Positions 3,341-20,257 of a stretch of DNA of 64,000 bases are shown in pieces (position 1 is the stretch's first letter; the number at the start of each line of letters is the position of its first letter). The notes under the pieces are model-generated. The model was not told the DNA's origin, did no database searches, and saw nothing but the letters and a program-made list of their open reading frames with translations. The stretch spans positions 2,736,693 to 2,800,692 of the forward strand of contig NZ_AP014545.1 in the NCBI RefSeq assembly GCF_016592435.1, read 5' to 3'. The position numbers and the translations under genes were made by a program. The stretch comes from Amphritea japonica ATCC BAA-1530. GTDB lineage: Bacteria; Pseudomonadota; Gammaproteobacteria; Pseudomonadales; Balneatricaceae.

Positions 3341-3364
3341 TAGCTTCTCTTTATTTCCAAACGT

Positions 3365-3441: not shown

Positions 3442-4578
3442 TTAAAGTAGTCGCGCAATACGTAAATCTGAAGTAGACATATCACCGGTCAATTGGATCG
3501 ATCCGATCTTCTCCAGTGTATCCGGATTATGAATGGATATATCGCTTGAAGTACCGCCTATATAGATCGTCCGGCTACGGTCCATATTGATGCTATAGAA
3601 GGTATGATCCAGATCTATTACATCGACCGTCTTATTCTGCGAGAGATCATGCTTAGACAGTTGATTGAAAGCACCATAGAGAATATTGCTATCATTCGGA
3701 TCAGTAATCCAGTTGAATACAATAAATTCAAAAGGCACAGTCTCACGCTCATCAACCTCACCGGTTGCTATATCGATGCGGCTCATACCCCACCAAAACT
3801 CAGCCTTCTCCATATCACCCGGATCACCATTCCACTTAATAGTGAAGTACGGCATGATGTATTCGCCAACGTGTTCACCCTGAGTAAACATGGCAAACGC
3901 ATCTGGCGGAATCCAGTCTGCACCGCGTGCCCAGTTCTGCAGAGCACTCAGCACCCGTATGTCACCGTTTTCGGGATTGATCGCCTTAATGTCAGCGCCA
4001 CCCAGAATCACTTCGCCATTTTGCATCGTCATGATTTTGGTAATACGACGGTCAACCGGAAAATTGCGTACCGATTTTGCATCCAGGCCATCCGCTGTAT
4101 TAAAAACAGCCAGGCGCGGTGCAAGCACTTCATAACGATCATTCAGCTTACGGGTAGGATTCTGTACCGTGTACAGCTCTTTACCATCATTGCTGATCGC
4201 CAGAGAGATAAAAGTTTTCACCTTTTCACCGTTCTGGGACTGCTTAGCAGAGAACGTAATATCGCAATTAGTGATATCAAAACCATAGACATCTTCGGCA
4301 CCGTTGGTCAGTACATAAGCGATACGGCCATCCGGCGACGGCTGAACCGCACCGGTACCAAAGTTTCCAGGCACATCACAACTGCGTACAACCTGCTTGG
4401 TTTCAGTGTCAATCACATGTAGCTGGTTAGGGCGGGTTACGGTCAGCAGGTATTCATGCCCATCCGCAGCCATACCATTGACCGACGCAGCCTGATTCGC
4501 AGCACAGCCCGACATCAGGGTTACAGCCCCTGCAGCACACAATAACGTGGCCGTTTTAAAAATATTCGAAATGTTCAT
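3442..4578 (-). CDS. qhpB: Amine dehydrogenase beta subunit (beta-propeller)
   Basis: 378-residue beta subunit of quinohemoprotein amine dehydrogenase. Repeated YVTN-like propeller strands are visible (for example LYTVQNPTRK and TIYIGGTSSDI), matching the seven-bladed propeller known for this subunit, which packs over the CTQ site in the periplasm. The N-terminus is a signal peptide with a hydrophobic core at about residues 9-22. It ends in LMSGC at 21-25, which resembles a lipobox and would make Cys25 a possible lipid attachment site; this is unexpected for a soluble periplasmic enzyme. The gene follows qhpC with an 11-bp gap. Confidence 0.9.
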   Translation of the reverse strand: MNISNIFKTATLLCAAGAVTLMSGCAANQAASVNGMAADGHEYLLTVTRPNQLHVIDTETKQVVRSCDVPGNFGTGAVQPSPDGRIAYVLTNGAEDVYGFDITNCDITFSAKQSQNGEKVKTFISLAISNDGKELYTVQNPTRKLNDRYEVLAPRLAVFNTADGLDAKSVRNFPVDRRITKIMTMQNGEVILGGADIKAINPENGDIRVLSALQNWARGADWIPPDAFAMFTQGEHVGEYIMPYFTIKWNGDPGDMEKAEFWWGMSRIDIATGEVDERETVPFEFIVFNWITDPNDSNILYGAFNQLSKHDLSQNKTVDVIDLDHTFYSINMDRSRTIYIGGTSSDISIHNPDTLEKIGSIQLTGDMSTSDLRIARLL

Positions 4579-4589
4579 CTATTACTCCG

Positions 4590-4916
4590 TTACTTCTGCT
4601 CTTCCGGAAAGATTCCGTCCAGCTTACGCCAGTCCTCATTAGCCTTGGATACATCCATTGACCAGTTAGGCTGGCTACTCATGGTGTCAGGCACCTGAGC
4701 GGGCCACCAGCAAGCATCGGCACAACCATAAAGATCTGATTCCATTGGCTGACACAGCGAGCCCAGGCCACCAAAAGGATCAACTTCCCAGCCCGGATCA
4801 TTCGTGGAGGTACAGCCAACAACTGACTGCATCGCTACAACCTCTTCTACTTCATCCGGAGAAGTAGTCTGATCGAGCATTTTCGCTTTCTTATTAAACG
4901 ACTTTAGATGTTTCAT
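4590..4916 (-). CDS. qhpC: Amine dehydrogenase gamma subunit, CTQ-cofactor peptide
   Basis: 108-residue precursor of the catalytic gamma subunit. Every residue known to form crosslinks in the Pseudomonas/Paracoccus enzyme can be aligned with an offset of 28: Cys35-Glu44, Cys55-Asp61 and Cys69-Asp77 thioethers, and Cys65-Trp71 for cysteine tryptophylquinone. The 28-residue leader is polar and lysine-rich at its start, then acidic, ending near VVA. It has no hydrophobic core, so it is not a Sec signal; QhpE is expected to cut after Ala28. The stop of qhpD directly abuts the ATG of this gene, which suggests coupled translation with the crosslinking enzyme. Confidence 0.95.
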
Positions 4917-6356
4917 TTAAGCACTCCTTCTAGGAGAGACATGAGCTTCAAAAAAGCCCGGATTCTCTATCATGATGCGGGTATACGCTTCGACACCAAA
5001 ATCGACCCAGTCACGTAACAGATCGCAGTAGTGGTATGAAGGTACGGTCGCATCACCGTATTTTGCGTAACTTTCGTGATAACAACCGCCGGAACAGATA
5101 TTACGGATACGGCAGGTTTCGCAGCCGGTATCAGCTCGATCCAGACGGGTTTCAATAAATTCAGCCAGAGCCGGTTTATCCAGCCCCTCGCTGACATCAC
5201 CAAACAGTGACTGATCAGAGCCAGTGAACCGATGACACAGGTTGATACCCCCTTGAGTATCTACTGCCAGCAGACCGACTCCAGCACCACAAGGCAGCTG
5301 TTTCTTATTGCCCTCATGAATATCGGTCATCAGCATATGCATATTGCCGAAACCCAGGTTTTTGCCTTCCAGCGCAGCGTCCAGATACTTCTGACCCAAA
5401 CGCTTCATCCCTGCAAACACCTCGACCATTTCGTCAGCGGTAAGATTGAATGAGGAGATATCGCCAGAGGTTACCGGGCCAAATCCGACTTCGGAGAAAC
5501 CCAGGTCGTGATAGAGGTGATTAAAGATCGATTCCACATCAGTGATGCCCCGGGTCAGCGTAACCCGACAGCCAATTGGACGAGCGTTATAGCGAGACAG
5601 TAACATCTGCGCCTTCTTCTTCACCACGTCGTAAGTTCCCTGGCCACCTACCGTAATCCGGTTCTTATCGTGCATCGCCTTAGGCCCATCCATCGAGATA
5701 GTCAGGCCAAAACGATGCTCATTAAACCAGTCCACAAGCTCTTCGGTGAGCATGGTAGCGTTGGTGGTCATCGTGAAGCTCACATCCGCTTCCAGCGCTG
5801 CAAAGCGCTCTTCACAATAAGCCACAACATTACGAATGAGCGACATATTTGTCAGTGGCTCACCACCAAAGAACACGACATTGTACTGACGCTGGTCAGG
5901 AGACTCTTTCAGCATCATCTCCACCGACTTCACCGCTGTATCAAAGTTCATCTTGTCACCCTTTGACGGGGTGGTCAGATCCTCTTTGTAGCAGTAAGTA
6001 CAACTGAGATTACAACCCGTATTGGTATTCAATACGATCGTGGTCAACGGAAACTGTTTCACCGGTTGAGGCTCATTATTAATCTGAGCCCAGGTACCCG
6101 CTTCAGCAACGATCTTCAGCGTCTTTAACTCTTCCAGAGTATCCACTACATCACCGGCACTGAACCGGCCATCAAACCGTTCACGGATCTGTGGTGCAGA
6201 CACCTCTGCTTCCGAAGAGAACAGTTCAATAAGCTCTCGACCCAAATCATCCAGCTCAAACAAGCTGCTGGTTGGCACATGGAATAGCATCCGCCGTTCC
6301 GCCACATCTACAAGATGCAGGTTGGGTTTTACCAGAGTTAAAGATCCCATAATCAA
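4917..6356 (-). CDS. qhpD: Radical SAM/SPASM crosslinking enzyme QhpD
   Basis: 479-residue radical SAM enzyme that forms the Cys-to-Asp/Glu thioether bonds in QhpC. The radical SAM cluster motif CNLSCTYC places ligands at Cys115, Cys119 and Cys122. The C-terminus holds a SPASM-type set of cysteines (LPCGAG, NLCHRF, CETCRIRNICSGGC, YHYCD) for auxiliary clusters. The first about 95 residues look like a peptide-binding (RRE-like) domain. The ATG at 6356 has GAGG about 6 nt upstream. The gene lies between qhpA (55-bp gap) and qhpC (no gap). Confidence 0.94.
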   Translation of the reverse strand: MIMGSLTLVKPNLHLVDVAERRMLFHVPTSSLFELDDLGRELIELFSSEAEVSAPQIRERFDGRFSAGDVVDTLEELKTLKIVAEAGTWAQINNEPQPVKQFPLTTIVLNTNTGCNLSCTYCYKEDLTTPSKGDKMNFDTAVKSVEMMLKESPDQRQYNVVFFGGEPLTNMSLIRNVVAYCEERFAALEADVSFTMTTNATMLTEELVDWFNEHRFGLTISMDGPKAMHDKNRITVGGQGTYDVVKKKAQMLLSRYNARPIGCRVTLTRGITDVESIFNHLYHDLGFSEVGFGPVTSGDISSFNLTADEMVEVFAGMKRLGQKYLDAALEGKNLGFGNMHMLMTDIHEGNKKQLPCGAGVGLLAVDTQGGINLCHRFTGSDQSLFGDVSEGLDKPALAEFIETRLDRADTGCETCRIRNICSGGCYHESYAKYGDATVPSYHYCDLLRDWVDFGVEAYTRIMIENPGFFEAHVSPRRSA

Positions 6357-6411: not shown

Positions 6412-8013
6412 TTACTGAATTGCGCGTTTGACAAACACAGGTACAGTCACCAGCAGATGCGCATCACCCTCAATCGCTTTATCACCATCCAAAACCTGAG
6501 CTATCACTTTCAGATTGCCCACATTATTGGTGGAGAACTTACGTTCAGGATTGAGACCGGCATCGCCCGGTGTGAATACACCATTGCCATCAATTGAGCC
6601 TGCGTATTTAAGATCTTCCTCATGCTCTGCAGCTTCATCAAAAGCTTGTAGAGACCAGAGTGCCTGCATATAGCCCAGGCGCAAATCATCAGCCGTACCT
6701 GGCTGGCCGTCTTTACCAGCACTGAATGCCAACGCACGATAGGTTGATTGCATCTTCGGAATCTTTCCGCCATTACCCCCTATTCGAGCAATAGACTCAT
6801 TCGGCAATACCTGAACTGCAGCAATTTCATCGTAAACAGCCAGTTGTGCTTTGGCCTTACTCTTACCGACCGATACATCCCTCATGCCTACAGAGGCGGA
6901 ACCTGTCGCTTTTGCCAACACCACCACCCTGTCAGCATCACGGGAGAGGACTTTAACCACTTGAACGCCACTACCAAGGTTCACACTACCTTTGAGGTCG
7001 GCCCCCACAATAGTGATCTCTTTTTGCTGCCCTTGCTTTATGGCTGAAGGAGACAACGCAACGACTGCGCTACCACTGACAGCGGTCAGCTCACCACCAA
7101 TCTCATCATGAGCACTCTGGAACATCCGACCTGACAGAGAAGAGCCGTCTTCAGTAGCAGCCATCACCTGACGCATCTTTATGCCATCAATTGTCAGGCT
7201 TGCACGCCATTCATAACCGGCGAATACTTTTGCACTACCCTCACCCTGCAATGGCGTACCATCGGCATAATGACCCTTCATCGAAACACTAAAGTTATCT
7301 TTAGACGTCTCTTTAGTCTGAAGAACAGCACTGTAATCACCTTTACCCGGCATAAAGCCAGCAACGCTCCAGGTGCCACTCAGCGAAGGCTTAGCTTTTG
7401 CTTGCCACTGATTCCAGGCGGGATCATTGAACGCATAATCAACAGCCAGTTTTGGCACGACATCGTTATAGGCGATGTCATACCAATCCCGGTCTCGAGC
7501 CAGCGCATGCAGTTCAGTTGTTGGGTTTATCGCCATATGCGTATTTACATGTAGCTGCCACTCACCAAGAGTCCGGCGCTGAAGTCCAAAACGAGCATTA
7601 GAGTGACAACGCGCGCACATCTCAACATACGCAGGATCAACGTCTTCAACTACATTCGGCTTTTGCTCAAGCACATAACGAAACGGGGCGGTTTCAGAGG
7701 GAGCCAGTCCCTGCGTATCAGAAAGATACTTAATAACAGCCTGAACCTCGTCAGAAGAGATCACCAGACCATTCATACGTTGCATACGATTAAGCGTCAT
7801 ATGCCAGCCTTCAGGGGTCTTACGCTGTTGGCTTATTCTGGAATATGGCGCTTCAGGGTTGCCGGTATTGGTGTGACAAATCAGGCATTTTTCCTGAATT
7901 AGCGTCTCACCATCCGTCGCCCAAGACGCCGCAGGGGTCAGCATAGTCCCCATCAGAGCCAGTGCACTAACACTAAGCAGTGCATGCTTGGATTTCTTAA
8001 TTTTCAAGGCCAA
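6412..8013 (-). CDS. qhpA: Amine dehydrogenase alpha subunit, diheme cytochrome c
   Basis: 533-residue alpha subunit that takes electrons from CTQ through two c-type hemes. Heme motifs are CLICH (Cys43, Cys46, His47) and CARCH (Cys133, Cys136, His137). Ig-like and beta-barrel domains follow, as in the known structure. Residues 1-32 form a Sec signal peptide ending in SWA. No ATG precedes the signal peptide; the start must be a TTG, either at 8013 (AGGAG 3 nt upstream) or at 8007 (AGGAG 9 nt upstream, better spacing). First gene of the qhp operon; the shared 60-bp element lies 118-177 bp upstream. Confidence 0.94.
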   Translation of the reverse strand: MALKIKKSKHALLSVSALALMGTMLTPAASWATDGETLIQEKCLICHTNTGNPEAPYSRISQQRKTPEGWHMTLNRMQRMNGLVISSDEVQAVIKYLSDTQGLAPSETAPFRYVLEQKPNVVEDVDPAYVEMCARCHSNARFGLQRRTLGEWQLHVNTHMAINPTTELHALARDRDWYDIAYNDVVPKLAVDYAFNDPAWNQWQAKAKPSLSGTWSVAGFMPGKGDYSAVLQTKETSKDNFSVSMKGHYADGTPLQGEGSAKVFAGYEWRASLTIDGIKMRQVMAATEDGSSLSGRMFQSAHDEIGGELTAVSGSAVVALSPSAIKQGQQKEITIVGADLKGSVNLGSGVQVVKVLSRDADRVVVLAKATGSASVGMRDVSVGKSKAKAQLAVYDEIAAVQVLPNESIARIGGNGGKIPKMQSTYRALAFSAGKDGQPGTADDLRLGYMQALWSLQAFDEAAEHEEDLKYAGSIDGNGVFTPGDAGLNPERKFSTNNVGNLKVIAQVLDGDKAIEGDAHLLVTVPVFVKRAIQ

Positions 8014-8130
8014 TCACTCCTGTAAGAATTTTCTTTGCAGCATCTGTCGCTATAAACCAGAACAGATGCAGGCCCTCATCTTTAATTTTTATATTCGCCG
8101 GTTTTCCGACTTACACTAACCTAACGGTCC

Positions 8131-8190
8131 GGTGTAAATGAGTTTCTGGGAATTTGTGCTAAGTTGTTGGTTAATGTAACAGGATGTAAC
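8131..8190. promoter_or_regulatory. 60-bp shared element upstream of qhpA
   Basis: This stretch of the 335-bp qhpA/regulator intergenic region matches 18609-18668 upstream of the barrel gene at about 44 of 60 positions with no gap, in the same orientation relative to the gene. The strongest block is AAGTTGTT followed by two ATGTAA direct repeats exactly 10 bp apart, one helical turn. That is the geometry expected for an OmpR-family dimer, and the divergent gene encodes such a regulator. The rest of 8014-8348 shows no other clear motif. Confidence 0.65.
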
Positions 8191-8348
8191 AAACGCTGCA
8201 TCAGCATCTTTATAACCCTTTGTCTGATAAAGAATTTCTACAGTTTTCTATCCGCATAAGCTTTTATTCAGGACCACTGTCATCGGGCTTAACTGCTTGC
8301 TAGACTCAAAGCATTGGAATTACAAAAACACATTAATAGTTGCAGATC

Positions 8349-9071
8349 ATGATCTCTCATACTGAACAGTCACATATCTTAATCGTAGAGGATGATTTTG
8401 CATCCCGCTCTTTGCTGGTCAGCTATTTCGAAAACGAAGGTTATCGGGTAAGTGAAACCGATCATGGCGAAAGCCTGGTTCAAAGGGTTATAGATGAAAA
8501 TATCAACCTGGTACTACTGGATATCAATTTGCCTGGAAAAGATGGGCTTACGCTAACCCGCGAGCTCAGAACTCATTCAAAAGTAGGTATCATTTTAGTC
8601 ACCAGTAAAGGGGATGAAATTGATCGTATCGTCGGTCTGGAACTTGGTGCTGATGACTATGTCACTAAGCCGTTTAATCCCCGCGAACTCTTGGTAAGAG
8701 CTAAGAATTTATTATGGCGGGTAACCGATGAGCCCTCTTCTTCAGAAAGCCCAATTAACCGATTAATCCAGTTTGAAGGCTGGACGCTGGACTGCAGTCG
8801 ACGACTGCTGGAAAGCCCTGAAGACGGATCTGAACGCTTACCCGAAGGGGAATACAAACTTCTCCACGCACTGATCACCAGTCGTGGACAGGTACTCAGC
8901 CGAGATCAGTTGATGGACGCCATTCATGATCGTGAATGGACGCCAAATGATCGTTCTGTCGATGTTCTGATAGGCCGGCTACGACGTAAACTTTATGACA
9001 ACCCTAACGATCCCCATTTCATTCTCACAGCCCATGGGGCCGGCTACATGTTTGCCGGTGAGATCGGATAA
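8349..9071 (+). CDS. OmpR-family response regulator, probable amine-regulon activator
   Basis: 240-residue response regulator. An N-terminal receiver (acidic pair in ILIVEDD, phospho-acceptor Asp in LVLLDINLPG, Lys in YVTKPF) is joined to an OmpR/PhoB winged helix ending in RRKLYDNP and GAGYMF. A TTG-initiated extension from 8340 is possible, but the ATG at 8349 is preferred. It is divergent from qhpA and 3 bp ahead of the giant hybrid kinase. In Paracoccus the qhp operon is controlled by an AraC-type QhpR; here a two-component regulator occupies that place. Likely target: the 60-bp elements at 8131 and 18609. Function is inferred from position. Confidence 0.85.
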   Translation: MISHTEQSHILIVEDDFASRSLLVSYFENEGYRVSETDHGESLVQRVIDENINLVLLDINLPGKDGLTLTRELRTHSKVGIILVTSKGDEIDRIVGLELGADDYVTKPFNPRELLVRAKNLLWRVTDEPSSSESPINRLIQFEGWTLDCSRRLLESPEDGSERLPEGEYKLLHALITSRGQVLSRDQLMDAIHDREWTPNDRSVDVLIGRLRRKLYDNPNDPHFILTAHGAGYMFAGEIG

Positions 9072-9074
9072 TTG

Positions 9075-12000
9075 ATGAAGCATACTCCTGGCTTTCAGAT
9101 CCAGACAATTATTCACCGTGGTAAACACTGCACTGTCAGTCGCGCTCTTCGAGACAGTGACCTTCAACCGGTCATCATTAAGCAACTCAATAGAAATATC
9201 ACAACCCCGGAAGATATCGGTCGTTTTGAACATGAGTATGAGTTACTCAGTTCACTGGATATCGAGGGTGTAGCCACGCCATTACCCCTAAACAGTATTG
9301 ATAACCAAACAACGCTCATACTCCCTGACCTGGGCGGCCTTTCCCTCAGACAGATGATGCAAAAAAAGCGCTACCCCTGGGAGCAGGTATTACCCATGGT
9401 GATCTGCCTCAGCGAGCTGCTGGGTCGGTTACACAGTGAAAGGGTTATCCATAAAAAACTATCACCCGATAACATCCTTTGGTTACCTGACACCGAAGAT
9501 GTTCAGCTAATCGACTTTGCAATTTCTACCAGGCTAGCCCGAGAGCAAGCCAGCTGGAATTCACAGCAACTATCCATCGATGATCTGCAATATATGGCAC
9601 CGGAGCAAACCGGGCGCATCAATCGTCATATCGATTATCGCAGTGATTTTTATAGTCTGGGAGTGGTGTTGTATGAGATGTTCTGCGGACGCCCTCCCTT
9701 TAGGGGGGAAGATCGGCTACAACTGATCCACTGTCATATAGCCAAACAACCCAAAGCCCCTAATGATATTAATCCAGCATTACCTGAGATGCTAAGCCGG
9801 ATTATTCTAAAACTAATGGCCAAAGATGCATCCGAACGATATCAGTCAAGTTTTGGTATCACCGAAGATCTCAGGAAATGTCTTAATTGCTGGAATCAGC
9901 AACAAAACATCCCACTCTTTAACATAGCCCGCAAAGATATCTCTGAAAACTTTTCCGTACCGCAACGTCTTTATGGACGTGCCGCAATTATTCAGAAACT
10001 ACGCAGTAGCTTTGATCACAGAGCCCCTCAAAGCCAGGAGTTAATTCTAATTACCGGCTATGCGGGCATTGGAAAATCAAGCCTTGTGCACGAGCTGCGC
10101 CACTATATCCATGAGCAAAATGGTCGTTTTATCAGTGGTAAGTTCGATCAATTTCGCCGAAACAGACCCTACTCAGGTATATTTCTCGCCTTACAGGGAT
10201 TAATCAGACAGTTATTGACTGAAAGCGATCAGGATATCTCTGTCCATCGCGATCTTATATGTAAAGCACTGGGACAAAGCGCACACACTCTTATAAGTCT
10301 GGTACCAGAACTTGAACTGATCATTGGGAAACCATTAACGTCTCAGCGACTGTCTATTTTTGAAGAACAGAACCGTTTCTCTATTCTGGTCAAAGCACTC
10401 ATTAGTGCATTTGCGACGCCTGAAACCCCACTCCTTCTGTTTCTTGACGATCTACACTGGGGTGATCTGGCATCTTTCAACCTGATCTCTTCTTTATGTG
10501 AAGATGGCGATATGCCTAATCTACTGATTGTCAGTAGTTATCGTGATCAGGCTGTCGGCCATTCACACCCTTTGGCATTGACAATAAATCGATTGAAACA
10601 GGGAAATTGTCGCATTAGCGAGATTCTCCTTGAACCGCTTAACAAAACTCAAACGACCCGATTGATCGCTGATACTTTACGCACTGAGCCTCAGCATTGC
10701 ACAGCACTCGCTCAGATCTGCATGGAGAAAACCCAGGGAAATCCATTCTTTTTAATCCAGCTACTCTACTCACTTTATGACGAAGGGCTAATCAGCTTCC
10801 ATCAAAACCGCTGGCAATGGGACGAAACTAAGATTCAATCTCGGGAGATGAGCGATAACGTTATCGATCTGATGGTCAGTAAGATTCAAAAACTCTCAGA
10901 TGAAAGCCAGAAAGCCCTGCAAATGGCTGCCTGTATCGGTAGCCCGTTTGATCTTAATACCCTGTCTGTTGTGTTAGAACAAAGTGAAAACACCACGACA
11001 AAGAACCTGATGGATGCTGTTCGCGAAGGTTTATTAATTCCTTTGGATATCAACTATGCCAGCAGTTCTGGCCTGACATTTGATCGCCATCGATTTAGAT
11101 TTATACATGACCGAATTCAACAAGCCGCCTACTCTCTGATTCCGGAAAACCTGCGACAAGCATTACACCTGAAGATCGGCCAGCTTTTGCAGCAGCGCGT
11201 TTCAAATCGGCACAACATTCCGGTATTCGAGGTCACTAATCACCTCAACAGTGCCCGAAACCTGATCGAGTCAGAAGATCAGTTGATAGAGCTCGCCTCG
11301 CTTAACTGTCAATCAGGCATACAGGCGCTGGACTCAGCTGCCTTTGATGCTGCCCAGGAGTACTTTCAGACGGGTATTGAGTTACTCTCAGAGGATCGCT
11401 GGCAACAACATTACGATCTAACATTATCGCTTTATACCAGTGGAACAGAAGCCGCTTACATTAGCTCTCAGTTCGAACAGATGAACTATCTGATCGATCA
11501 GGTTATTGAGAATAGCAACAATATTCTGGATCAGGTAAAAGTCTATGAGATAAGAATTCAATCTCATGTTGCCAGAAATCAGTTCGAGCAAGCGATGCAA
11601 GTCGCTCTGCAAATATTACGCATGCTAGGCGTTGAGCTACCCGTCAAACCCAGTAAAAGGCAGACCTGGCAGGGAGTACTTCGTACCCAATGGCTGTTAC
11701 ATCGACGTAGCCGGGAGCAGATCCTGGAAGCCAAACCGATGCAAGACCCCTACGACCTGGCAGCATTATCAATTCTGGCCAGTATGTTCGGAGTAGTGAA
11801 GTTTTCCAGTTCGGCCTTACGCCCCCTGGTTATGGCTAAAGAAGTAGAGCTAACACTGACTCGTGGACTGACAGCGCATTCCTCTATGGCTTTTGCCGGG
11901 TATGGCGGTATTTTGTGTGGTACATATTCAGCCATCAATCAGGGTTATGCGTTAGGTAAAATCGCCATGGAGCTTGACCAGCGCCAGCCGAATAGACTAA

Positions 12001-15000
12001 TTCACCACCGAACCAGCTCTCTGTTTGATACCTATGTACGGCACTGGAAAGAACCTCTGAATCTATCACTCGAATCCTTACTCGACGGACATCAACAAGC
12101 GTTAGACTGCGGGGATATCGAATGGGGTAGTTACTGTCTTGCAGCCTGGATTCAGTTTGCGTTTAATCAAACAACTAATTTCGCAGAACTAAAACCCATC
12201 ATAGAGAATCACACGGCTTCTCTCCGGCAATATGGCCAGAAACAATCCACTCAATATTCACTGCTGGCCCTGCAAGCGATAGATAACCTACTAGGTAATA
12301 GCGATGATCCAACCCGCTTATTTGGAGATTTCTTCAGCCAGCAATTATTAGATGAAATCCACCAGGAAGATCACCGCACAGCGATCTGTCTGTACCACTA
12401 TTACAGTGCAATACTCTGCTTTATTATGGGGAGCTATCAACAGGCAAATCACCATTGTGAAACAGGTAGCCCTTACCTGCCACACATTGGCGGAACCTAT
12501 ACGGCCCCCTGCTTCGAATTTATAATCGCACTTTCCCAGATAGCGCTTATTCCTGAAACCAGTATTCTGCAACAAAGTAATAAGTTAAAAAAAGTACGCC
12601 AAATTCTACGACGATTTAAACGTTGGGCACGCCATTGTCCAGAAAACCATCAACACGTTGAGCATCTTCTACAGGCTGAATTGTATCGCGTTAATCGCCA
12701 CTTCAGTAAAGCGATGGACTTTTACGATAGCGCGATCAATGCTGCCCAAAAGAACCACTTTTACCTTATCGCCGCCCTGGCCCGGGAGTTGGCTGGTCGT
12801 TGCTATATTGAATGGGATAAACAGAATATTGCCCGCACCTACCTAAACGAGGCCTGGAATGGCTACCTCCACCTACAACTCAAACCAAAACTACACCAAC
12901 TACAAACGCAATATCCTGAGTTATTCGGTGGTCGGAATCTCAGCGAGAATAACAGAAACAACACACTTGTCAGCGTCGATCAGGCTGAGCATTTCTCCAA
13001 TCAACAACTGGACACTATCTCGGTTATCCGTTCCTCCCAGGCTATTTCAGATGAAATAGTGCTCGAGAAACTTTTGGGAAGACTAATGGCACTGGCGCTG
13101 GAAAGTGCCGGCGCCCAGCGGGCAATTCTTATTCTTAAAGAAAAAGGTAATCTCTATATAGAAGCGGAAACAGTCCTTGAAAGAGCGCCTCAGTTTTTCA
13201 ACAGTCTGGCTCTGGATAACAATACAACCTTGCCGGTGAGCATTGTTCATTACGCCGCCCGTACCAAAGAGATTGTGGTACTCAGTGATGCCCACCGTCA
13301 CGACATGTTTATGCAGGATAGTTATATCCGCAAGCACAAACCCCGTTCGTTACTTTGCATGCCAATTTTGTATCACGGTGAACTAACCGCCCTTCTTTAT
13401 TTAGAAAATAACCAAAGCCGAAATGTATTTGACCCTTCCCGAATGGAAACCCTGCAAATTCTCTCAGCACAGGCGGCAATCTCCATCGAGAATGCAAAAC
13501 TTTACTCAAGTCTGGAGCATTCAGAACAGGAGTTTCGCTCACTGTTTGAAAATACTGTGGAAGCAATTTTCAGAGCCAGCGCACAAGGTCACTTTATCTC
13601 AGCCAACCCCGCCTTAGCCGAACTACTCGGATACCGAAACCCTGAAGAATTCCTCAACACCATCACTGATATTGGTAGTCAGTGCTTTATCAACAGCCAG
13701 GACCTGCACCAGTTCCTGAATCTTTTGTCTGATGATAACCGGGTGACAGGCTTCGAAACAGAGTGGCAACGGCGGGATGGCTCACCGGTCAATGTCTCCA
13801 TTTCGGCACGAAGAGAACTAGATGATCAGGGCAAACCCCTCTACTACGAAGGCTCTCTTACTAATATCACTGAACGTAAAGCAAAAGAGCAAGCTCAGCT
13901 AAACCTTCAAAAATCTGAGGCCGCCAGTCAGGCGAAGTCTGAGTTCCTGGCAACAATTAGTCACGAGATAAGAACGCCTATGAATGGCATTCTCGGCATG
14001 GCTCAACTACTTGAGAAAGGCCATCTCCACCCTGAACAACAGAAACAAGTGAAGGCAATTTATCAATCCGGGCAGACCCTGTTATCTATCCTCAATGATG
14101 TACTCGACTTTACCAAAGCAGAAGCCGGCCAGGTTGAACTGGACCAGACCCCCTTCTCTGTCAGTCAGGTACTCGATGAACTCGAATTGATGCTACGACC
14201 CATGATGCAGGAAAAACACCTTTCATTTGAACTGAATATTCTTGACCCTTTACCTGACACCATATTCGGTGACCGACGGAGCCTGGGACAAGTTTTGATG
14301 AACCTTTGCGCCAATGCGATTAAATTCACCCAACAAGGTTTTGTTAAAATATCAGTCAAATGCATCCAAACGGTTCAATCAGCAAACATCAGCTTCATTG
14401 TTGAAGATAGCGGTATCGGTATTCCAGAAGAGTCACATCATCGTATTTTTCAACATTTCTCGCAGGCTGACTCTTCCATTACTCGTCGCTACGGCGGTAC
14501 CGGACTGGGTCTTGCCATAAGTAAAAAAATTGTTGAACTTCAACAGGGACAGATCGGCTTTAGCAGCTCCGAGGGACACGGCAGCCAGTTCTGGTTCAGT
14601 ATCCCCTATGTATTAACTTCTGCAGACCAGAGTAATACTACAGCGGTGTCAGCACCAAAACCCGGACAACCCCTGCACATTCTTTTGGTTGAGGATACGG
14701 TCATCAATCAACTGGTTGCTCAGGGACTACTGGAAAGCGATGGTCATCAGGTCGACATTGCAGAAAACGGCTATACCGCCCTGCAAAAACATAATCAAAA
14801 TAACTATGATCTGATACTCATGGATATTCATCTTCCCGATATGGATGGCATGGAAACCACACGCCGAATACGGGCACACCTAAACCCTAAAAAAGCCAAT
14901 ATTCGAGTAATCGCTCTCACCGCTAGCGTTACTGAGGCGGAAATCAATAACTATCATGCTGCGGGTATTGATGCGGTGGTAGGTAAACCGCTTCAATACA

Positions 15001-15464
15001 AAGAACTGCAACAGCTAATCGGTAAGCACAATACTAACCTTGAGACCGCTAATACCTTTATGACAAACCCTGTTGAAGAAGGATCCAGTTCGAAATTGAC
15101 TACTGCCACGCGTAATGAGGTTCCTCTGCTGAACCAACACCTGGTTGACCAACACTGCTCCATGCTTGGGCAGGAAAAATTCACCAAACTGATCGATCAG
15201 CTACAGCAACAATGCGAACAACTTACAACTAAGATGGAACAATCGCGCCTGCAGGGCAATGACGAACAATTTCGAAATATTGCTCACCAGTTGGCGGGGG
15301 CATCGGCGAATTTTGGTCTTCTGGCCCTGTCACTAAAATCCAAAGCATTAGAGGAGGAAAACGAAGCGATAACGGAGGGTACACACGCGGAGTTGAATAC
15401 TCTTCTGGAAATAAGCCTAAAAGAACTACACCAACATACCCAACAGAGCCGTTCAGGCAACTGA
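9075..15464 (+). CDS. Giant kinase-like/ATPase/hybrid histidine kinase
   Basis: 2129-residue cytoplasmic multidomain sensor kinase. Order: Ser/Thr-kinase-like domain (1-270), AAA-type ATPase with P-loop GYAGIGKS (about 326-334), a long TPR-like helical region, GAF (about 1333-1470), PAS (about 1483-1600), HisKA with His1630 in SHEIRTP, HATPase with GGTGLGL, receiver with Asp1917, and Hpt with His2071. The histidine-kinase half looks intact and could pass phosphate His-Asp-His-Asp to the preceding regulator. The N-terminal domain departs from active kinases: the HRD-type loop reads HKKLSPDN, so Lys128 replaces the catalytic Asp, and DFG reads DFA (147-149). It is probably a pseudokinase. No transmembrane segment seen. 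A TTG two codons' space upstream was passed over for the ATG. The signal sensed is unknown; amines are the contextual guess. Confidence 0.9.
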   Translation: MKHTPGFQIQTIIHRGKHCTVSRALRDSDLQPVIIKQLNRNITTPEDIGRFEHEYELLSSLDIEGVATPLPLNSIDNQTTLILPDLGGLSLRQMMQKKRYPWEQVLPMVICLSELLGRLHSERVIHKKLSPDNILWLPDTEDVQLIDFAISTRLAREQASWNSQQLSIDDLQYMAPEQTGRINRHIDYRSDFYSLGVVLYEMFCGRPPFRGEDRLQLIHCHIAKQPKAPNDINPALPEMLSRIILKLMAKDASERYQSSFGITEDLRKCLNCWNQQQNIPLFNIARKDISENFSVPQRLYGRAAIIQKLRSSFDHRAPQSQELILITGYAGIGKSSLVHELRHYIHEQNGRFISGKFDQFRRNRPYSGIFLALQGLIRQLLTESDQDISVHRDLICKALGQSAHTLISLVPELELIIGKPLTSQRLSIFEEQNRFSILVKALISAFATPETPLLLFLDDLHWGDLASFNLISSLCEDGDMPNLLIVSSYRDQAVGHSHPLALTINRLKQGNCRISEILLEPLNKTQTTRLIADTLRTEPQHCTALAQICMEKTQGNPFFLIQLLYSLYDEGLISFHQNRWQWDETKIQSREMSDNVIDLMVSKIQKLSDESQKALQMAACIGSPFDLNTLSVVLEQSENTTTKNLMDAVREGLLIPLDINYASSSGLTFDRHRFRFIHDRIQQAAYSLIPENLRQALHLKIGQLLQQRVSNRHNIPVFEVTNHLNSARNLIESEDQLIELASLNCQSGIQALDSAAFDAAQEYFQTGIELLSEDRWQQHYDLTLSLYTSGTEAAYISSQFEQMNYLIDQVIENSNNILDQVKVYEIRIQSHVARNQFEQAMQVALQILRMLGVELPVKPSKRQTWQGVLRTQWLLHRRSREQILEAKPMQDPYDLAALSILASMFGVVKFSSSALRPLVMAKEVELTLTRGLTAHSSMAFAGYGGILCGTYSAINQGYALGKIAMELDQRQPNRLIHHRTSSLFDTYVRHWKEPLNLSLESLLDGHQQALDCGDIEWGSYCLAAWIQFAFNQTTNFAELKPIIENHTASLRQYGQKQSTQYSLLALQAIDNLLGNSDDPTRLFGDFFSQQLLDEIHQEDHRTAICLYHYYSAILCFIMGSYQQANHHCETGSPYLPHIGGTYTAPCFEFIIALSQIALIPETSILQQSNKLKKVRQILRRFKRWARHCPENHQHVEHLLQAELYRVNRHFSKAMDFYDSAINAAQKNHFYLIAALARELAGRCYIEWDKQNIARTYLNEAWNGYLHLQLKPKLHQLQTQYPELFGGRNLSENNRNNTLVSVDQAEHFSNQQLDTISVIRSSQAISDEIVLEKLLGRLMALALESAGAQRAILILKEKGNLYIEAETVLERAPQFFNSLALDNNTTLPVSIVHYAARTKEIVVLSDAHRHDMFMQDSYIRKHKPRSLLCMPILYHGELTALLYLENNQSRNVFDPSRMETLQILSAQAAISIENAKLYSSLEHSEQEFRSLFENTVEAIFRASAQGHFISANPALAELLGYRNPEEFLNTITDIGSQCFINSQDLHQFLNLLSDDNRVTGFETEWQRRDGSPVNVSISARRELDDQGKPLYYEGSLTNITERKAKEQAQLNLQKSEAASQAKSEFLATISHEIRTPMNGILGMAQLLEKGHLHPEQQKQVKAIYQSGQTLLSILNDVLDFTKAEAGQVELDQTPFSVSQVLDELELMLRPMMQEKHLSFELNILDPLPDTIFGDRRSLGQVLMNLCANAIKFTQQGFVKISVKCIQTVQSANISFIVEDSGIGIPEESHHRIFQHFSQADSSITRRYGGTGLGLAISKKIVELQQGQIGFSSSEGHGSQFWFSIPYVLTSADQSNTTAVSAPKPGQPLHILLVEDTVINQLVAQGLLESDGHQVDIAENGYTALQKHNQNNYDLILMDIHLPDMDGMETTRRIRAHLNPKKANIRVIALTASVTEAEINNYHAAGIDAVVGKPLQYKELQQLIGKHNTNLETANTFMTNPVEEGSSSKLTTATRNEVPLLNQHLVDQHCSMLGQEKFTKLIDQLQQQCEQLTTKMEQSRLQGNDEQFRNIAHQLAGASANFGLLALSLKSKALEEENEAITEGTHAELNTLLEISLKELHQHTQQSRSGN

Positions 15465-15483
15465 GAGCCCTCATCGTGTAAAT

Positions 15484-15507
15484 AAAAAAGCCCCTCGATC
15501 GAGGGGC
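15484..15507 (-). terminator. Terminator, minus strand
   Basis: Palindrome GCCCCTCGATCGAGGGGC followed on the minus strand by TTTTTT. It could end both the candidate small RNA and read-through from the barrel/aldehyde dehydrogenase operon. A weak plus-strand hairpin with a T run (about 15664-15677) may serve the hybrid kinase gene. Confidence 0.8.
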
Positions 15508-15597
15508 AAAACTTCCGATTCTAGCCAGGAAGCATGTGCACGGGGACCTCCCGGCAGGTGAGAAAGAACGCTTTAAACGTTATTCAAACTAACCCAT
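15484..15597 (-). ncRNA. Candidate small RNA, copy B
   Basis: Minus-strand stretch of about 114 nt ending in a strong terminator. Its 5' box (plus-strand 15576-15599) matches 20 of 24 bases of the candidate at 30455-30478, and its 3' box (15500-15517) matches 16 of 18 bases at 30341-30358. The middle differs in length and sequence. Recurrence of both ends around a terminator points to a small RNA family and not just the 3' UTR of the upstream aldehyde dehydrogenase gene. No open reading frame seen. The family is not one I can name. Confidence 0.4.
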
Positions 15598-15690
15598 CAG
15601 CAGCGATAGGCTAGCCTGAAACATTAATACTTGTTTAAATCTTACTGATCACTCTACTGCAATAGCCTGAAGGCTTTTTATCAATACGGC

Positions 15691-17100
15691 TCATTTATTA
15701 ATATTAATAACCTGAGCCGATGTGTATTCCAATAAACCTTCCTGACCAAATTCAACACCAAATCCCGACATTTTACAGCCGCCAAATGGCGCATATGGTA
15801 GCAACTCGGCATGGCCATTCACCCAAGCGGTTCCACATTCCAGACGGGCTGCTATTTTTGCCGCTTTAGCAGTATCAGAAGACCAGACTGAGCCTCCCAG
15901 CCCTACATCGGCCGCATTTGCCCGTTTAATCGCATCTTCAACATCACTGTAACGAATTACAGGTAATACAGGGCCAAACTGTTCCTCATCAACAAGACGG
16001 CAGCCATCAGTAACATCAGCAACAATGGTTGGCGGATAAAAATATCCGGCGCCTTCTATCGGAGAGCCGCCGCATAGAACTCGTGCACCATTAGCACGGG
16101 CATCTTCGACTAACCCATTAACCAGATTCAATTGCTTCCTGTTCTGAATAGGACCAAAAGTAACGCCTTCTGTCTGACCATTGCCCACCACCTGTTTAGC
16201 AGCCACTTCTGCCAATTTCTCACACATCTCTTCATAGATAGAGTCATGAACATAAAGGCGTTTCAATGCAGCACAAGTCTGCCCCATGTTAAGGAATGAG
16301 GTCTGGAAGATAGCTTCAGCTATCGCAGCTGGGTCGGCATCCGCTAGTACAATACCTGCATCGTTACCGCCTAGCTCAAGCGTCAGGCGTTTGAGGTTAT
16401 CAGCGGCCCCTCGCATGATGGTCTGACCTGTTGGAGTAGAGCCCGTAAATACAATCTTACGGATGCCCTGATGCTTCGTCATGCCGTTACCAATATCACC
16501 TTCTCCGGTAACAATATTGACCAGCCCTGGCGGCGCCACTTCATTGATAATTTCGACCAATCGCAACGTGTTTAGCGGTGTCAGACCTGAAGGTTTAGAA
16601 ACGACAGTATTACCAGAACGGATAGCCGGCATAATATGCCAGACAGCAATCATCAGCGGCCAGTTCCACGGCGTTATAGAACCGACAACGCCAAGCGGTT
16701 TACGGTGGATTTCGATTCGCTTACTCTCGTTTTCTTCAAGAATATCGATTGGTAGCTCGAGGTCTGCTGTCGCACGGGTCCAGGCAACAGCGCCGCCCAC
16801 TTCAGCCTGTGCAAGAAACATAGGTTTACCTTGCTCCTCAACAACAATCTGAGCCAATTCAGCAGCATTGACTTCAATACGATCGGCTATGTCATGTAAC
16901 AATTTTTTACGCTCATCATGACTAGAATATTGCCAGGTTTCAAAGCAGGCCTGTGCCGCAACTACTGCCTCATCAAGCTGCTCTAAACTGGCTTGAGGAC
17001 AGAGAGCAACAACTTCTTCAGTCGCTGGGTTCAAAACGTCAAAATTGCCACCGTTACCGGCGACTTTCTGACCTTTAATAATCAGTGAATACTCTTTCAT
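15691..17100 (-). CDS. NAD(P)-dependent aldehyde dehydrogenase
   Basis: 469-residue aldehyde dehydrogenase superfamily enzyme that oxidises aldehydes to acids. Visible: the general-base Glu in LELGGNDAG, the nucleophilic Cys in MGQTCAALKR, the cofactor-binding VFTGSTPTG, and the C-terminal PFGGCKMSG. Two ATGs lie six bases apart; the inner one (17100) has AAGGA at a better distance. It follows the barrel gene on the same strand with a gap of about 70 bp, so the two are probably one operon. Given the shared upstream element, the likely role is to oxidise aldehydes released by quinohemoprotein amine dehydrogenase. Substrate is inferred. Confidence 0.88.
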   Translation of the reverse strand: MKEYSLIIKGQKVAGNGGNFDVLNPATEEVVALCPQASLEQLDEAVVAAQACFETWQYSSHDERKKLLHDIADRIEVNAAELAQIVVEEQGKPMFLAQAEVGGAVAWTRATADLELPIDILEENESKRIEIHRKPLGVVGSITPWNWPLMIAVWHIMPAIRSGNTVVSKPSGLTPLNTLRLVEIINEVAPPGLVNIVTGEGDIGNGMTKHQGIRKIVFTGSTPTGQTIMRGAADNLKRLTLELGGNDAGIVLADADPAAIAEAIFQTSFLNMGQTCAALKRLYVHDSIYEEMCEKLAEVAAKQVVGNGQTEGVTFGPIQNRKQLNLVNGLVEDARANGARVLCGGSPIEGAGYFYPPTIVADVTDGCRLVDEEQFGPVLPVIRYSDVEDAIKRANAADVGLGGSVWSSDTAKAAKIAARLECGTAWVNGHAELLPYAPFGGCKMSGFGVEFGQEGLLEYTSAQVININK

Positions 17101-17171
17101 TCTCATATTCCTTCATTACCGAAATACCGGGATCCTAGAATCCCGGCCTATATTATAGTTATGTTACACAA

Positions 17172-18452
17172 TCAGAACGGTACAATCGCGATAACCTGAG
17201 CATAAAAGTTATCAGAAGTAGTATTCTGAGTTTGGTTACTACTATCAGGAGAATAGACACCAATCAGAGGGCTAATAATCAGATGCTCATTAACAACCCA
17301 TTCGGCATAAAGATCTAATTCCTGTCCTTCAGAGTTAGCACCAAAAGTTGTTGAGTCGCTGAAGTCAAAATACAACGCTCCGACTGATAGCATTTCGGTT
17401 GGAGATGCTTTCAGGGCAACATGCTGAATAGATGCGGATGAACCAAATGGCCCAGCATAGTTGGCTGCCACTTCGCCCTGGAACCAGGTTCCGTAACCAC
17501 GGTTAAAGCCAAAGAACAACGAGTCAAAATTCTCTTCATACTTCGTATAACGATAGGTCAGCTGTGGCGTCCAGGCTACATCAGAAAAGGTCCAGCCCGC
17601 TTCTGCATACCATGCGTTTGCATCATCAGAGCTGTCACCTTGCGACTGATCAGCATACTCCGCTGACAGGAACAGGTTCTCGACACCGGCATTACCCTGA
17701 AAACGAACACTGACAGTCTTCTGCCCATCACGCTTAGCATTATCTACGGCATCAAGACCTTTGATATACGTAGCACCGAAAGTACCTGTTTCAGTAACAT
17801 ACTCAATGTTTGCACCGCCAAGCTCAACTTCAGACTGTGCTTTATTATCTGATTCAAGATAGAAAAGATCGCCGCGCAGGCCATCTTCTCCGCCAATACG
17901 TGCAATCGCTGTCTGGTTGAATGCTTTACGGGCTGCTAACCAATATGCGCCACCTCGGTTTGAGTCAGGAAACACTCCCTCACCCAGATTTAATGCATCG
18001 CCGTTGATAAGGAACCCGTCACCGATTGAGAAGTTCTGACGACCAAAAGACAGGTCCAGCATATCAGTTCGGAAACCGACATAAGCATCTTCGACTGCGG
18101 TACGACGTTCGCTACCGTCAGTATTTCCGCCAGCATCGCCATCACCCCAGGTACCTGAAGAAACAAAGTTAAGTCCGCCGTATACAGAGTTTAATTCGCT
18201 TAAGGCATGGCTACCGCTCAAGCCGGCTTTAAGATAACCTTCCTGCCAGCTGGAACCATCACCCGTTTTGCCGAAATAGTTTTCATCACTACTGAACGTA
18301 CCTACTACAGCTTCGATATCCAGGTTCAGTTCAGAACCATTTTCACTATAAAGATTGTACGCCTGTACTGGCATAGCCATTGCTGCGGTTGCTGCTGCAA
18401 CAGCTGCTGTCAGCAGATAACCAGACACATTCCGGTCATTTGATTTCTTCAT
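17172..18452 (-). CDS. Outer-membrane beta-barrel protein, probable amine-uptake porin
   Basis: 426-residue secreted protein. A Sec signal peptide of about 31 residues ends in VQA. The mature part is rich in alternating aromatic/polar strands and ends in Phe (IAIVPF), the classic barrel-assembly signal. Stretches such as LSFGRQNFSIGDGFL and the barrel length resemble alginate-export/DUF1302-type porins; I cannot place it more exactly. The start has a strong GGAGG 9 nt upstream. The upstream 60-bp element is shared with qhpA, and the next gene is an aldehyde dehydrogenase, so entry of amines or related substrates is the likely role. Confidence 0.75.
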   Translation of the reverse strand: MKKSNDRNVSGYLLTAAVAAATAAMAMPVQAYNLYSENGSELNLDIEAVVGTFSSDENYFGKTGDGSSWQEGYLKAGLSGSHALSELNSVYGGLNFVSSGTWGDGDAGGNTDGSERRTAVEDAYVGFRTDMLDLSFGRQNFSIGDGFLINGDALNLGEGVFPDSNRGGAYWLAARKAFNQTAIARIGGEDGLRGDLFYLESDNKAQSEVELGGANIEYVTETGTFGATYIKGLDAVDNAKRDGQKTVSVRFQGNAGVENLFLSAEYADQSQGDSSDDANAWYAEAGWTFSDVAWTPQLTYRYTKYEENFDSLFFGFNRGYGTWFQGEVAANYAGPFGSSASIQHVALKASPTEMLSVGALYFDFSDSTTFGANSEGQELDLYAEWVVNEHLIISPLIGVYSPDSSNQTQNTTSDNFYAQVIAIVPF

Positions 18453-18608
18453 CGATATTTCCTCCGCTAGCGCGCGATATTTTTATAATCTTCAGGCCCT
18501 GAAATCTGTCCAGGATTTTATAACCACTGCCAATCAACCAAAACATAAGGGGAATAGTTCTGGAGGGGCTGACAGATAAACTGAGTACAGGAAATAGACT
18601 AACTGCAG

Positions 18609-18668
18609 GGTGTAAACCTGATTCCGGGGAAATGTAGTAAGTTGTTTGTAAATGTAATGAGATGTAAT
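18609..18668. promoter_or_regulatory. 60-bp shared element upstream of the barrel gene
   Basis: Gapless match to 8131-8190 at about 44 of 60 positions, including AAGTTGTT and two ATGTAA repeats 10 bp apart. It lies 157-216 bp upstream of the barrel-gene ATG and is oriented as in front of qhpA. Probable binding site of the response regulator at 8349. Confidence 0.65.
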
Positions 18669-18758
18669 CGCTGACTTTTAACGCGCATAAGTTAGCCAAA
18701 CAAACCTGTGGCTGTAGAAGTACATATTACTTCCTGGGGATATAACCTACCTTTACGC

Positions 18759-18806
18759 TAACTCAGATGAATTTATAACGTGAATCTCCGTCCCTCATCT
18801 GAGTTA
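18759..18806. repeat. 12-bp perfect inverted repeat
   Basis: TAACTCAGATGA and its complement TCATCTGAGTTA, separated by 24 nt, in the 442-bp gap between the barrel gene and the dipeptidase gene. No T run follows on either strand, so an operator or processing stem is as likely as a terminator. The rest of 18669-18894 shows nothing further. Confidence 0.5.
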
Positions 18807-18894
18807 TGCTCTCTTTGATAAGCGTCATTCATTAACACTCTGGGTCTGTAATGACTTGGCACATTTCTGGTAACAACGACCATGAACAAGCTGT

Positions 18895-19572
18895 TTACTG
18901 GTGACTTACCCCACCATATATCGCATGATCATGGCCGCTCAGGTAGGCCCAGAATCGATCGCCGTATGAGAAGTGCCACCACTCCTGAAGGTAATTCACA
19001 AAGCCGGCACTCGTCATAGCGTCCACCAGCATCTGACGGTTCTGCACGACGACATCGCTAATTCCCGGCGCATGAGTCAAACAAAGATCAGGCTCTGTTT
19101 CTATCCACTTATAAATATCCATACCGAAATCCAGCGCCTGGCCACTCTCATCAACCAGAAACAGATCGACTGCTGCACCGGTATTGTGCGGAGGAATATT
19201 GAGCGTTCCATCCGGATAAGCGACCGCTGATACCATCCGGGTCGTTTCTTCAAACAGCTCTGATTCAGGCAGCTCTGGCTGGCGCTCACGCACTCTATCA
19301 AGCTCATCGGCAAATAACATACGTTGAACGTTAAGACTTCGATAACCCTCATATAGCCGCAAAGCAACCCCTCTTGGTAACAGTGACTGTGCATGCAGCA
19401 AGCGTTCATAAACCCCTTGCCGGACAAAGGTATAGTCATTCTGCGTTTCGGGGCATTCCGGTGGGGGCCCGTATTGCAGCCCCGCCATAACACGAATATC
19501 AACAAGTGGTTCGCCACATTCACGAACGGGGATAGCAAGCACGTCAGCGGAGGAAGGTGTCAATCTGTGCAT
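18895..19572 (-). CDS. D-alanyl-D-alanine dipeptidase (VanX/DdpX family)
   Basis: Zinc dipeptidase of the M15 family, about 225 residues, that splits D-Ala-D-Ala. The metal-site motifs are present: HNTGAAVD (His-x6-Asp) and EWWH near the C-terminus, and YRSLNVQ resembles the conserved YR motif. No signal peptide, so it is probably cytoplasmic. An upstream ATG at 19596 is in frame, but the ATG at 19572 has GGAG 6 nt upstream and is preferred. It stands alone; in Gram-negatives such enzymes recycle cell-wall dipeptide, and nothing nearby suggests glycopeptide resistance. Confidence 0.82.
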   Translation of the reverse strand: MHRLTPSSADVLAIPVRECGEPLVDIRVMAGLQYGPPPECPETQNDYTFVRQGVYERLLHAQSLLPRGVALRLYEGYRSLNVQRMLFADELDRVRERQPELPESELFEETTRMVSAVAYPDGTLNIPPHNTGAAVDLFLVDESGQALDFGMDIYKWIETEPDLCLTHAPGISDVVVQNRQMLVDAMTSAGFVNYLQEWWHFSYGDRFWAYLSGHDHAIYGGVSHQ

Positions 19573-19752
19573 CAGGCTCTCCGTCATAATTTTCATATAG
19601 AAGTATAACGGCTGACAATGAGAATTGTGAACAGGATGGGCGTATCTGAACTGTTCTCAGCTCAGCGTGCGGAGAAGCAACAGCGCAACGTTATCAGATG
19701 AATCATCTAAACATGAACTCCCCCCCAGGCTTCATGCTAAATTTATTAAAGC

Positions 19753-19965
19753 TTAACTTGCTGCCAGCGGCATTATATTGACAGCGTGTACGCCCTCTGT
19801 CTTCGGTGCGGCTTCAAACTGCACCTCCTGACCCGTTTTCAGACTTTTATAGCCTTCGCTAACAATCGATGAATAGTGGACAAACAGATCCTCATTAAAA
19901 TCTGGAGACACTATAAACCCAAACCCTTTCGCATTGTTAAACCACTTCACTGTACCCGTATACAT
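19753..19965 (-). CDS. Cold-shock domain protein (CspA/CspD type)
   Basis: 70-residue single cold-shock domain that binds single-stranded RNA or DNA. RNP1 reads KGFGFI and RNP2 reads DLFVHYSSI; a Tyr stands where most family members have Phe. AGGAG lies 6 nt upstream of the ATG. Monocistronic, with no clear signal deciding whether it is cold-induced. Confidence 0.93.
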   Translation of the reverse strand: MYTGTVKWFNNAKGFGFIVSPDFNEDLFVHYSSIVSEGYKSLKTGQEVQFEAAPKTEGVHAVNIMPLAAS

Positions 19966-20257
19966 GCCCAGCTCCTTAGAATTATTAACAGTCAGAGCAT
20001 TTCAACATCAATCAGATTAAAACAACTCTCTGTGACTATTTTCAGAAATTGAGACTGAGGGGTATATAAGAAAAAGTCCTAATATCATGCCGCTGTTTAT
20101 AAAAAAGCGACCCAGATCAAACACACCGGCTATTTCCTATATCAACTCGCCGTAATCATTGATATATCTCGTTGAAATACCTATGAACATTCTCCCCACT
20201 AAGCTTCCCTAGCTATCTCAACTAAACTGAGTAATGAGAAATGAAGGGTAAATAGGA

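Follow-up and report, generated by a model that had tools for sequence, protein, structure and literature searches.

A 73-bp direct-repeat element upstream of qhpA and a barrel gene probably defines a two-component regulon for amine oxidation in Amphritea japonica

Results

We analyzed a 64,000-nt stretch of the Amphritea japonica ATCC BAA-1530 genome ("the window") in which one short DNA element stands upstream of two gene sets. The first set begins with qhpA, which encodes the alpha subunit of quinohemoprotein amine dehydrogenase (6412-8013, minus strand; TIGR03908, 619 bits). The second comprises a gene for an Alginate_exp-like outer-membrane barrel (17172-18452, minus strand; PF13372, E 3.6e-9) and, behind it, an aldehyde dehydrogenase gene recognized by family searches (15691-17106, minus strand). 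Between them, on the plus strand, lie genes for a response regulator (8349-9071) and a giant hybrid kinase (9075-15464). An earlier reading made from the letters alone (the sequence-only reading) had described the two copies as a 60-bp element and predicted from them a single regulon for uptake, amine oxidation, and aldehyde oxidation.

The reported match proved exact in every detail except its length. Aligned without a gap, positions 8131-8190 and 18609-18668 share exactly 44 of 60 bases, whereas the next-best ungapped match of either 60-mer to any part of the window, both strands included, reaches 32 of 60. Both copies contain AAGTTGTT (at 8161 and 18639) and a pair of ATGTAA repeats 10 bp apart (8174 and 8184; 18652 and 18662), and both have the same orientation relative to the minus-strand qhpA and barrel genes. 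The conserved unit, however, is 73 bp rather than 60 bp, reaching about 13 bases further toward each gene. Copy 1 thus spans 8118-8190 and copy 2 spans 18596-18668, both on the minus strand. The two 73-mers are 70% identical, and the adjoining 73 bp on each side are 25% and 26% identical.

We examined 57 genomes of relatives, A. japonica included, and took from them 19 stretches of other genomes around a window-type qhpA copy, together with the left flank of our own window (L031). QhpA is encoded in 21 of the 57 genomes, mostly in two copies each, and a window-type qhp cluster is present in all 19 stretches, although within its stretch L049 lacks the regulator and kinase and L047 lacks the kinase. 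All 20 qhpA sites (the 19 relatives and the window; L046 was recognized by the matrix alone) have the element upstream, as do nine barrel genes (one in the window and the others in eight relatives); the model excluded a tenth barrel site, a weak one in L048. A sequence profile was built on these 29 copies from 20 genomes. Copies 1 and 2, which are training-set members, score E values of 1.4e-18 and 2.0e-16 against the profile.

All 29 copies align gaplessly across 73 columns, 20 of which are invariant. The columns read GTTACATnnTGTTACATnnnnnnACAACTTAGCACA, followed by 16 bases that are less conserved and include GAA, then TTTACA, 9 nt, and TAnnnT; on the minus strand, copy 1 follows the pattern GTTACAT..TTACAT......ACAAC....ACA....TTTACA.........TAnnnT. 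ACA cores start at columns 4, 14, 24, and 34, giving four ten-base boxes at a 10-bp pitch, which occupy 8151-8190 in copy 1 and 18629-18668 in copy 2 (minus strand) and are putative regulator-binding sites. Consistent with this periodicity, the information content of the first 60 columns has an autocorrelation of 0.33 at lag 10 and 0.38 at lag 11. The invariant columns include 53-58, 68, 69, and 73, which fall in TTTACA and TAnnnT; this part (8118-8138 in copy 1; by alignment, 18596-18616 in copy 2; minus strand) is a probable core promoter with TAnnnT as its -10. A scan for a consensus sigma-70 promoter, confined to 8000-8360, found none, with 1.0 expected by chance. Positions 7000-20000 of the window matched no Rfam structured RNA at gathering score.

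Conservation is confined largely to the element. Pairs of the 20 qhpA sites have a mean identity of 0.70 across the element, compared with 0.30 and 0.29 across the 73-bp flanks; for the nine barrel sites the mean is 0.73, compared with 0.30 and 0.42 in the flanks, the latter being the downstream one.

The element is also rare. A core pattern allowing up to 3 mismatches occurs exactly twice in the whole 3.83-Mb genome, at the two sites described, and the profile, which was trained on both, gives the same two strong sites, with the next match at E 0.32. Among the 57 genomes, strong sites (E < 1e-10) lie upstream of qhpA in 20. An order-wide sample of 293 genomes, partly overlapping the 57, yielded sites at E < 1e-6 in 7 genomes, two in each; all 7 belong to the A. 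japonica family, all encode QhpA, and three of them (G228, G268, and G307) contributed no training copy. The filters used in the profile scans of both samples lose some weak matches. In 10 genomes of other families in the order-wide sample that have above-cutoff QhpA, there was no site at E <= 0.01. The simple rule of at least four ACA at a 10- or 11-bp pitch misses several elements, such as those with TTATAT. Applied to 34 loci (562 kb, partly overlapping, with one site counted twice), it returned 29 arrays, all 29 of them element sites; it found two arrays in the window, and 2 in all among 20 mononucleotide shuffles of the window. The sequence-only reading had named an element in front of many unrelated genes as the result that would speak against it, and scans of the A. 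japonica genome and its relatives did not give that result. The 44/60 identity against 32/60, the rarity in the genome, and the conserved element between diverged flanks rule out chance similarity of the two copies.

Some weaker sites were seen elsewhere. Five weak matches (E 2.7e-5 to 0.0076) lie in other families of the order. A shorter element-like site in G035 (C34:30322; L094:6322-6381; E 6e-4) stands beside paaN and a hexapeptide-repeat gene; no open reading frame (ORF) of at least 100 amino acids runs in its reading direction within the 9 kb around it, and the site is unexplained.

We then compared the distribution of the element with that of the regulator. Twenty of the 57 genomes encode a regulator at least 72% identical to that of the window, and these are the same 20 that have a strong element upstream of qhpA; only one of the other 37 (G015) has a strong site. 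We also examined named loci, namely the best 80 of 471 relatives, which represent 77 distinct loci from Amphritea, Neptunomonas, Pontibacterium, Marinobacterium, Oceanospirillum, Neptuniibacter, Motiliproteus, Sedimenticola, Vreelandella, Halomonas, a Rhodocyclales metagenome-assembled genome (MAG), Pseudomonas, and others; several of their contigs are also in the 57-genome set. With the element called at a matrix score of >15 and the regulator at >150 bits by tblastn within the locus, the element is upstream of qhpA in 44 loci, and the regulator is present in 42 of these 44 and in none of the 33 without the element. One of the two exceptions, L131 (Motiliproteus SC1-56), was taken to be G029, where the regulator lies some 20 kb away; element and regulator are thus both present in G029 even though the regulator gene does not adjoin qhpA. 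In that genome the matrix finds no element upstream of the regulator gene, and we rejected the idea that the element is the regulator's own promoter.

Three loci in these sets have unusual contents. The strong site in G015 precedes an orphan barrel gene (L084:6851-8348) with an intact-looking element, near phenylacetate genes (PaaE, PaaA/C type, and PaaK) and a gene for a StyD-like aldehyde dehydrogenase. On L120 (19-1255), a gene upstream of qhpA encodes another activator, of the sigma-54 type as read from its translation alone. L138, the Rhodocyclales MAG contig, has the regulator, the giant kinase, and the element, through either transfer between classes or a binning error.

QhpR of known qhp operons is an AraC-type protein, and the sequence-only reading had set the present locus apart from such control. 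Of the genes tested in the window and L031 near qhpA and the barrel gene, none is of the AraC type. In a tree of 97 QhpA sequences, the 49 labeled as element bearing share an ancestor (support, 1.0) with two unlabeled tips, L112 and L136. L112 was labeled a miss because its element sits 489 bp upstream, beyond the 450-bp search. Halomonas icarae L136 is the sole clade member without the element; it lacks the regulator too, and an AraC-type gene lies 1.5 kb upstream of its qhpA, which fits the contrast drawn. Since the branch joining L136 to its neighbors has a support of only 0.39, L136 may sit at the base of the clade rather than inside it. From these sequences, the two-component system and element look like long-standing features of a single QhpA lineage, at the edge of which AraC-type control occurs.

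The element follows particular genes. We searched 450 bp upstream of each gene at a matrix score of >20, after dropping rows with coverage of <0.6, a match start after residue 60, <250 bp of upstream DNA, or a duplicate 200 bp upstream. Among qhpA genes whose products are at least 50% identical to that of the window, 49 of 53 have the element, or 50 with L112; the remaining ones are L136 and, both outside the clade, L008 and L142. Below 50% identity, 0 of 44 have it. Barrel genes behave similarly: 23 of 27 with at least 50% identity and upstream DNA score above 20, and the paralogous barrel (45-46% identity) has the element in 0 of 7 cases. Of the four low-scoring barrels, those of L089, L091, and L092 were found by the profile (E 4e-8, 7e-6, and 3e-3), and the fourth, in L134, has a long array. 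By the profile, the element precedes eleven barrel genes and one aldehyde dehydrogenase gene outside the training set.

The association persists in rearranged loci. Barrel genes distant from the qhp cluster retain the element (about 44 kb away in G022), and in Motiliproteus L092 the separated barrel and aldehyde dehydrogenase genes each have their own copy (E 3e-3 and 2e-5). The aldehyde dehydrogenase genes of L134 and L111 also have their own (matrix scores of 41.7 and 12.6, the latter identified by eye). Most aldehyde dehydrogenase genes in the loci inspected lie directly behind a barrel gene, and among 30 with at least 60% identity and upstream DNA, only that of L134 scores above 20. The element is thus associated with three gene types in varied arrangements. 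Its length varies by boxes: L091 has a fifth box within an extra 11 bp, and L134 (Motiliproteus sp. MSK22-1) has about 12 ten-base ACA boxes upstream of its barrel gene (about 3450-3572, counted by eye).

Domain and family searches confirmed that the gene divergent from qhpA encodes an OmpR-type regulator followed by a giant hybrid kinase. The regulator has a receiver domain (PF00072, 101.1 bits) and a Trans_reg_C domain (PF00486, 78.8 bits), which place it in the OmpR/PhoB type. Its nearest named family is TorR, but its 272.6 bits against the TorR equivalog NF008034 fall below the cutoff of 275, so it is TorR-like rather than TorR; its best PDB chain is the TorR receiver (1zgz). Sixteen other aligned regulators are 72-98% identical to it, with a near-invariant C-terminal recognition region. 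The kinase, its presumed partner, has about 2,130 residues, with a kinase-like domain followed by AAA_16, GAF, PAS, HisKA, HATPase, REC, and Hpt domains. It matches TorS (TIGR02956) only over residues 1613-2118, with 448.3 bits against a cutoff of 676.5. All 18 aligned orthologs retain the phospho-acceptor residues of the HisKA (His), REC (Asp), and Hpt (His) domains; in G035 the kinase gene does not adjoin the regulator gene, and a 52% identical ortholog lies on another contig. The front domain is probably a pseudokinase, since HK(K/Q/R) stands in all 18 (residues about 125-150) where the His-Arg-Asp (HRD) motif of a Ser/Thr kinase-like domain is expected. The domain search recognized no periplasmic sensor domain in the kinase, and no membrane-span prediction was run; any suggestion that the kinase responds to an amine or aldehyde inside the cell is guesswork.

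Downstream of qhpA, on the minus strand, are genes for the radical S-adenosylmethionine maturase QhpD (4917-6356; TIGR03906), the gamma subunit (4590-4916; an ORF conserved in relatives, which we take from position to be qhpC), the beta subunit QhpB (3442-4578; TIGR03907), an ATP-binding cassette (ABC) transporter assigned by ABC transporter families (1610-3379; from its position, presumably qhpF), and the subtilisin-like protease QhpE (871-1641; NF049966). QhpG is encoded beside qhpE at L031:15182-16567 (NF049967, 571 bits). QhpA, QhpB, QhpD, QhpE, and QhpG all score above curated cutoffs, which identifies the locus as a qhp operon (operon 2). The barrel has no PDB relative at E <= 0.1.

A second, paralogous operon, qhpA1-D1-C1-B1-barrel1 (operon 1), lies to the left of the window (L031:4808-15122), beside a divergent gene for a StyD-like aldehyde dehydrogenase (706 bits; cutoff, 850) and a GAF/sigma-54 activator gene. 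Operon 1 has no copy of the element. Sigma-54-like sites, defined as having no more than 2 mismatches to a sigma-54 consensus with GG and GC required and scored without a chance control, flank the qhpA1 upstream region on both sides in 15 of 15 loci (L001-L015) and are absent from L016. With sigma-54-like sites and a sigma-54 activator gene in place of the element, operon 1 would fall outside the element regulon, which would cover one of the two qhp operons. Operon 1 probably uses the maturases of operon 2, since the genome's sole above-cutoff QhpE is encoded in operon 2, with QhpG beside it; the genome-wide count covered QhpE only. In G022, the operon 1 barrel (L175:2058-3392) is 61% identical to that of the window, as opposed to 45-46% for operon 1 barrels elsewhere, and may have been swapped.

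Discussion

We consider it very probable that the element is a direct-repeat operator and promoter which, activated by the regulator at 8349-9071 with the giant hybrid kinase, defines one regulon. Its rarity, its co-occurrence with the regulator, and its persistence at qhpA, barrel, and aldehyde dehydrogenase genes in several rearranged loci all support the regulon proposed by the sequence-only reading. The element would be a full promoter that depends on an activator and includes an operator of tandem boxes, in which four ten-base ACA-core boxes stand head to tail, one per helical turn, and the last ACA ends 16 bases ahead of a weak core promoter (TTTACA, 9 nt, TAnnnT) that presumably sets the transcription start. 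Most likely, the phosphorylated OmpR/TorR-type regulator binds the boxes cooperatively and would then recruit RNA polymerase to PqhpA (8118-8190) and Pbarrel (18596-18668). The kinase would feed the regulator through a His-Asp-His-Asp relay. The outcome would be a single regulon in which an outer-membrane channel is expressed together with the periplasmic amine-oxidizing enzyme, the maturases of its cofactor, and the aldehyde-oxidizing enzyme.

Several observations weigh against this interpretation. The operator stands at the promoters of the proposed regulon and is rare elsewhere, with the exceptions of G015, L120, and some barrel genes. G015 has a barrel gene with a strong element (E 4.6e-15) and no matching regulator (E <= 1e-75), kinase (E <= 1e-100), or QhpA. 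L120, a 3-kb Neptunomonas MAG contig, has the element upstream of qhpA and no regulator on the contig. Not every barrel gene has the element: the 61% identical operon 1 barrel of G022, which fell outside the count of 27 and was checked separately, is without it, as would fit a different control of that operon. Finally, the counts are not independent tests, because the sequences share descent and the named loci overlap the set of relatives.

The G015 and L120 cases would fit an element that is a shared operator for another protein, such as an unlinked regulator, with the adjacent two-component pair controlling something else: G015 keeps the element in the absence of regulator, kinase, and QhpA, and the gene upstream of qhpA on L120 encodes a different activator. 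We regard this as unlikely. The element and the regulator occur together in all 20 genomes that encode the regulator, in 42 of the 44 named loci with the element, and also in G029, and H. icarae L136 lacks both together. Furthermore, OmpR/PhoB-type dimers bind head-to-tail boxes one helical turn apart, so the arrangement of the boxes suits such a protein, and the recognition region of this regulator is nearly invariant.

Comparison does not give the direction of regulation, and the boxes could instead serve repression, with the regulator blocking PqhpA and Pbarrel until amine is present. This is quite improbable: the boxes lie upstream of the presumed -10, TAnnnT, and not over the start, which suggests activation, and the lack of a consensus sigma-70 promoter at 8000-8360 points weakly the same way, given the 1.0 expected by chance. 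That the copies are mere duplicates of promoter DNA, alike by descent and without shared regulation, is extremely improbable: duplication can give two copies in one genome with 44/60 identity, but one copy should then have drifted in relatives, whereas many genera retain the element in front of both gene sets, between flanks near chance identity (barrel downstream flank, 0.42), relocated aldehyde dehydrogenase genes carry their own copy, and box number varies in whole units.

Beyond activation of one regulon by the two-component pair, we tentatively suggest, at somewhat less than an even chance, a broader scheme. The TorR-like regulator may polymerize on a growable array of boxes (usually 4, 5 in L091, and about 12 in L134), driven by a giant kinase without the HRD aspartate. 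Operon 1, which looks wired to sigma-54 instead, would share the single QhpE; because the only full QhpE lies in the two-component operon, the two-component regulon would then also gate maturation of the second enzyme.

If correct, our interpretation provides a sharply defined, testable operator for a regulon that, in many marine bacteria, joins an outer-membrane channel to the oxidation of amines, the cofactor maturation this requires, and the oxidation of aldehydes. An enzyme system that is accompanied by qhpR in other qhp operons would, in one QhpA lineage, be governed by a two-component pair. Operators that naturally have 4, 5, or approximately 12 boxes offer a ready series for asking how an OmpR-type regulator reads tandem boxes, and a simple promoter reporter would make the kinase's signal addressable. 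Among the open-access papers listed in our literature searches, titles and the opening lines of abstracts describe no two-component system for quinohemoprotein amine dehydrogenase, and a search of that literature for Amphritea with "amine dehydrogenase" gave no match.

The proposed operator resembles several known arrangements. In the pho box, head-to-tail half-sites lie one helical turn apart, the nearest replacing the -35. The element appears to share the head-to-tail repeats at one-turn spacing but has four or more boxes with an ACA core. The TorS-TorR system of Escherichia and Salmonella is closer in its proteins, as the regulator is most similar to TorR and the kinase C terminus to TorS, and PMC9239176 describes multiple boxes upstream of torCAD that share a 10-nucleotide consensus and are bound by TorR. 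Unlike TorS-TorR, the present proteins fall below both equivalog cutoffs (far below for TorS), the front of the kinase is made of kinase-like, AAA, GAF, and PAS domains, and the process is amine oxidation instead of trimethylamine N-oxide reduction; the boxes here have an ACA core. The qhpR-containing operons of Paracoccus denitrificans and Methyloversatilis universalis encode the same enzyme and maturation genes, and their qhp expression is amine induced according to PMC7876137 and PMC5023235. In contrast to those operons, the locus described here has a two-component pair and a repeated operator, which would add the barrel and aldehyde dehydrogenase genes to the regulon.

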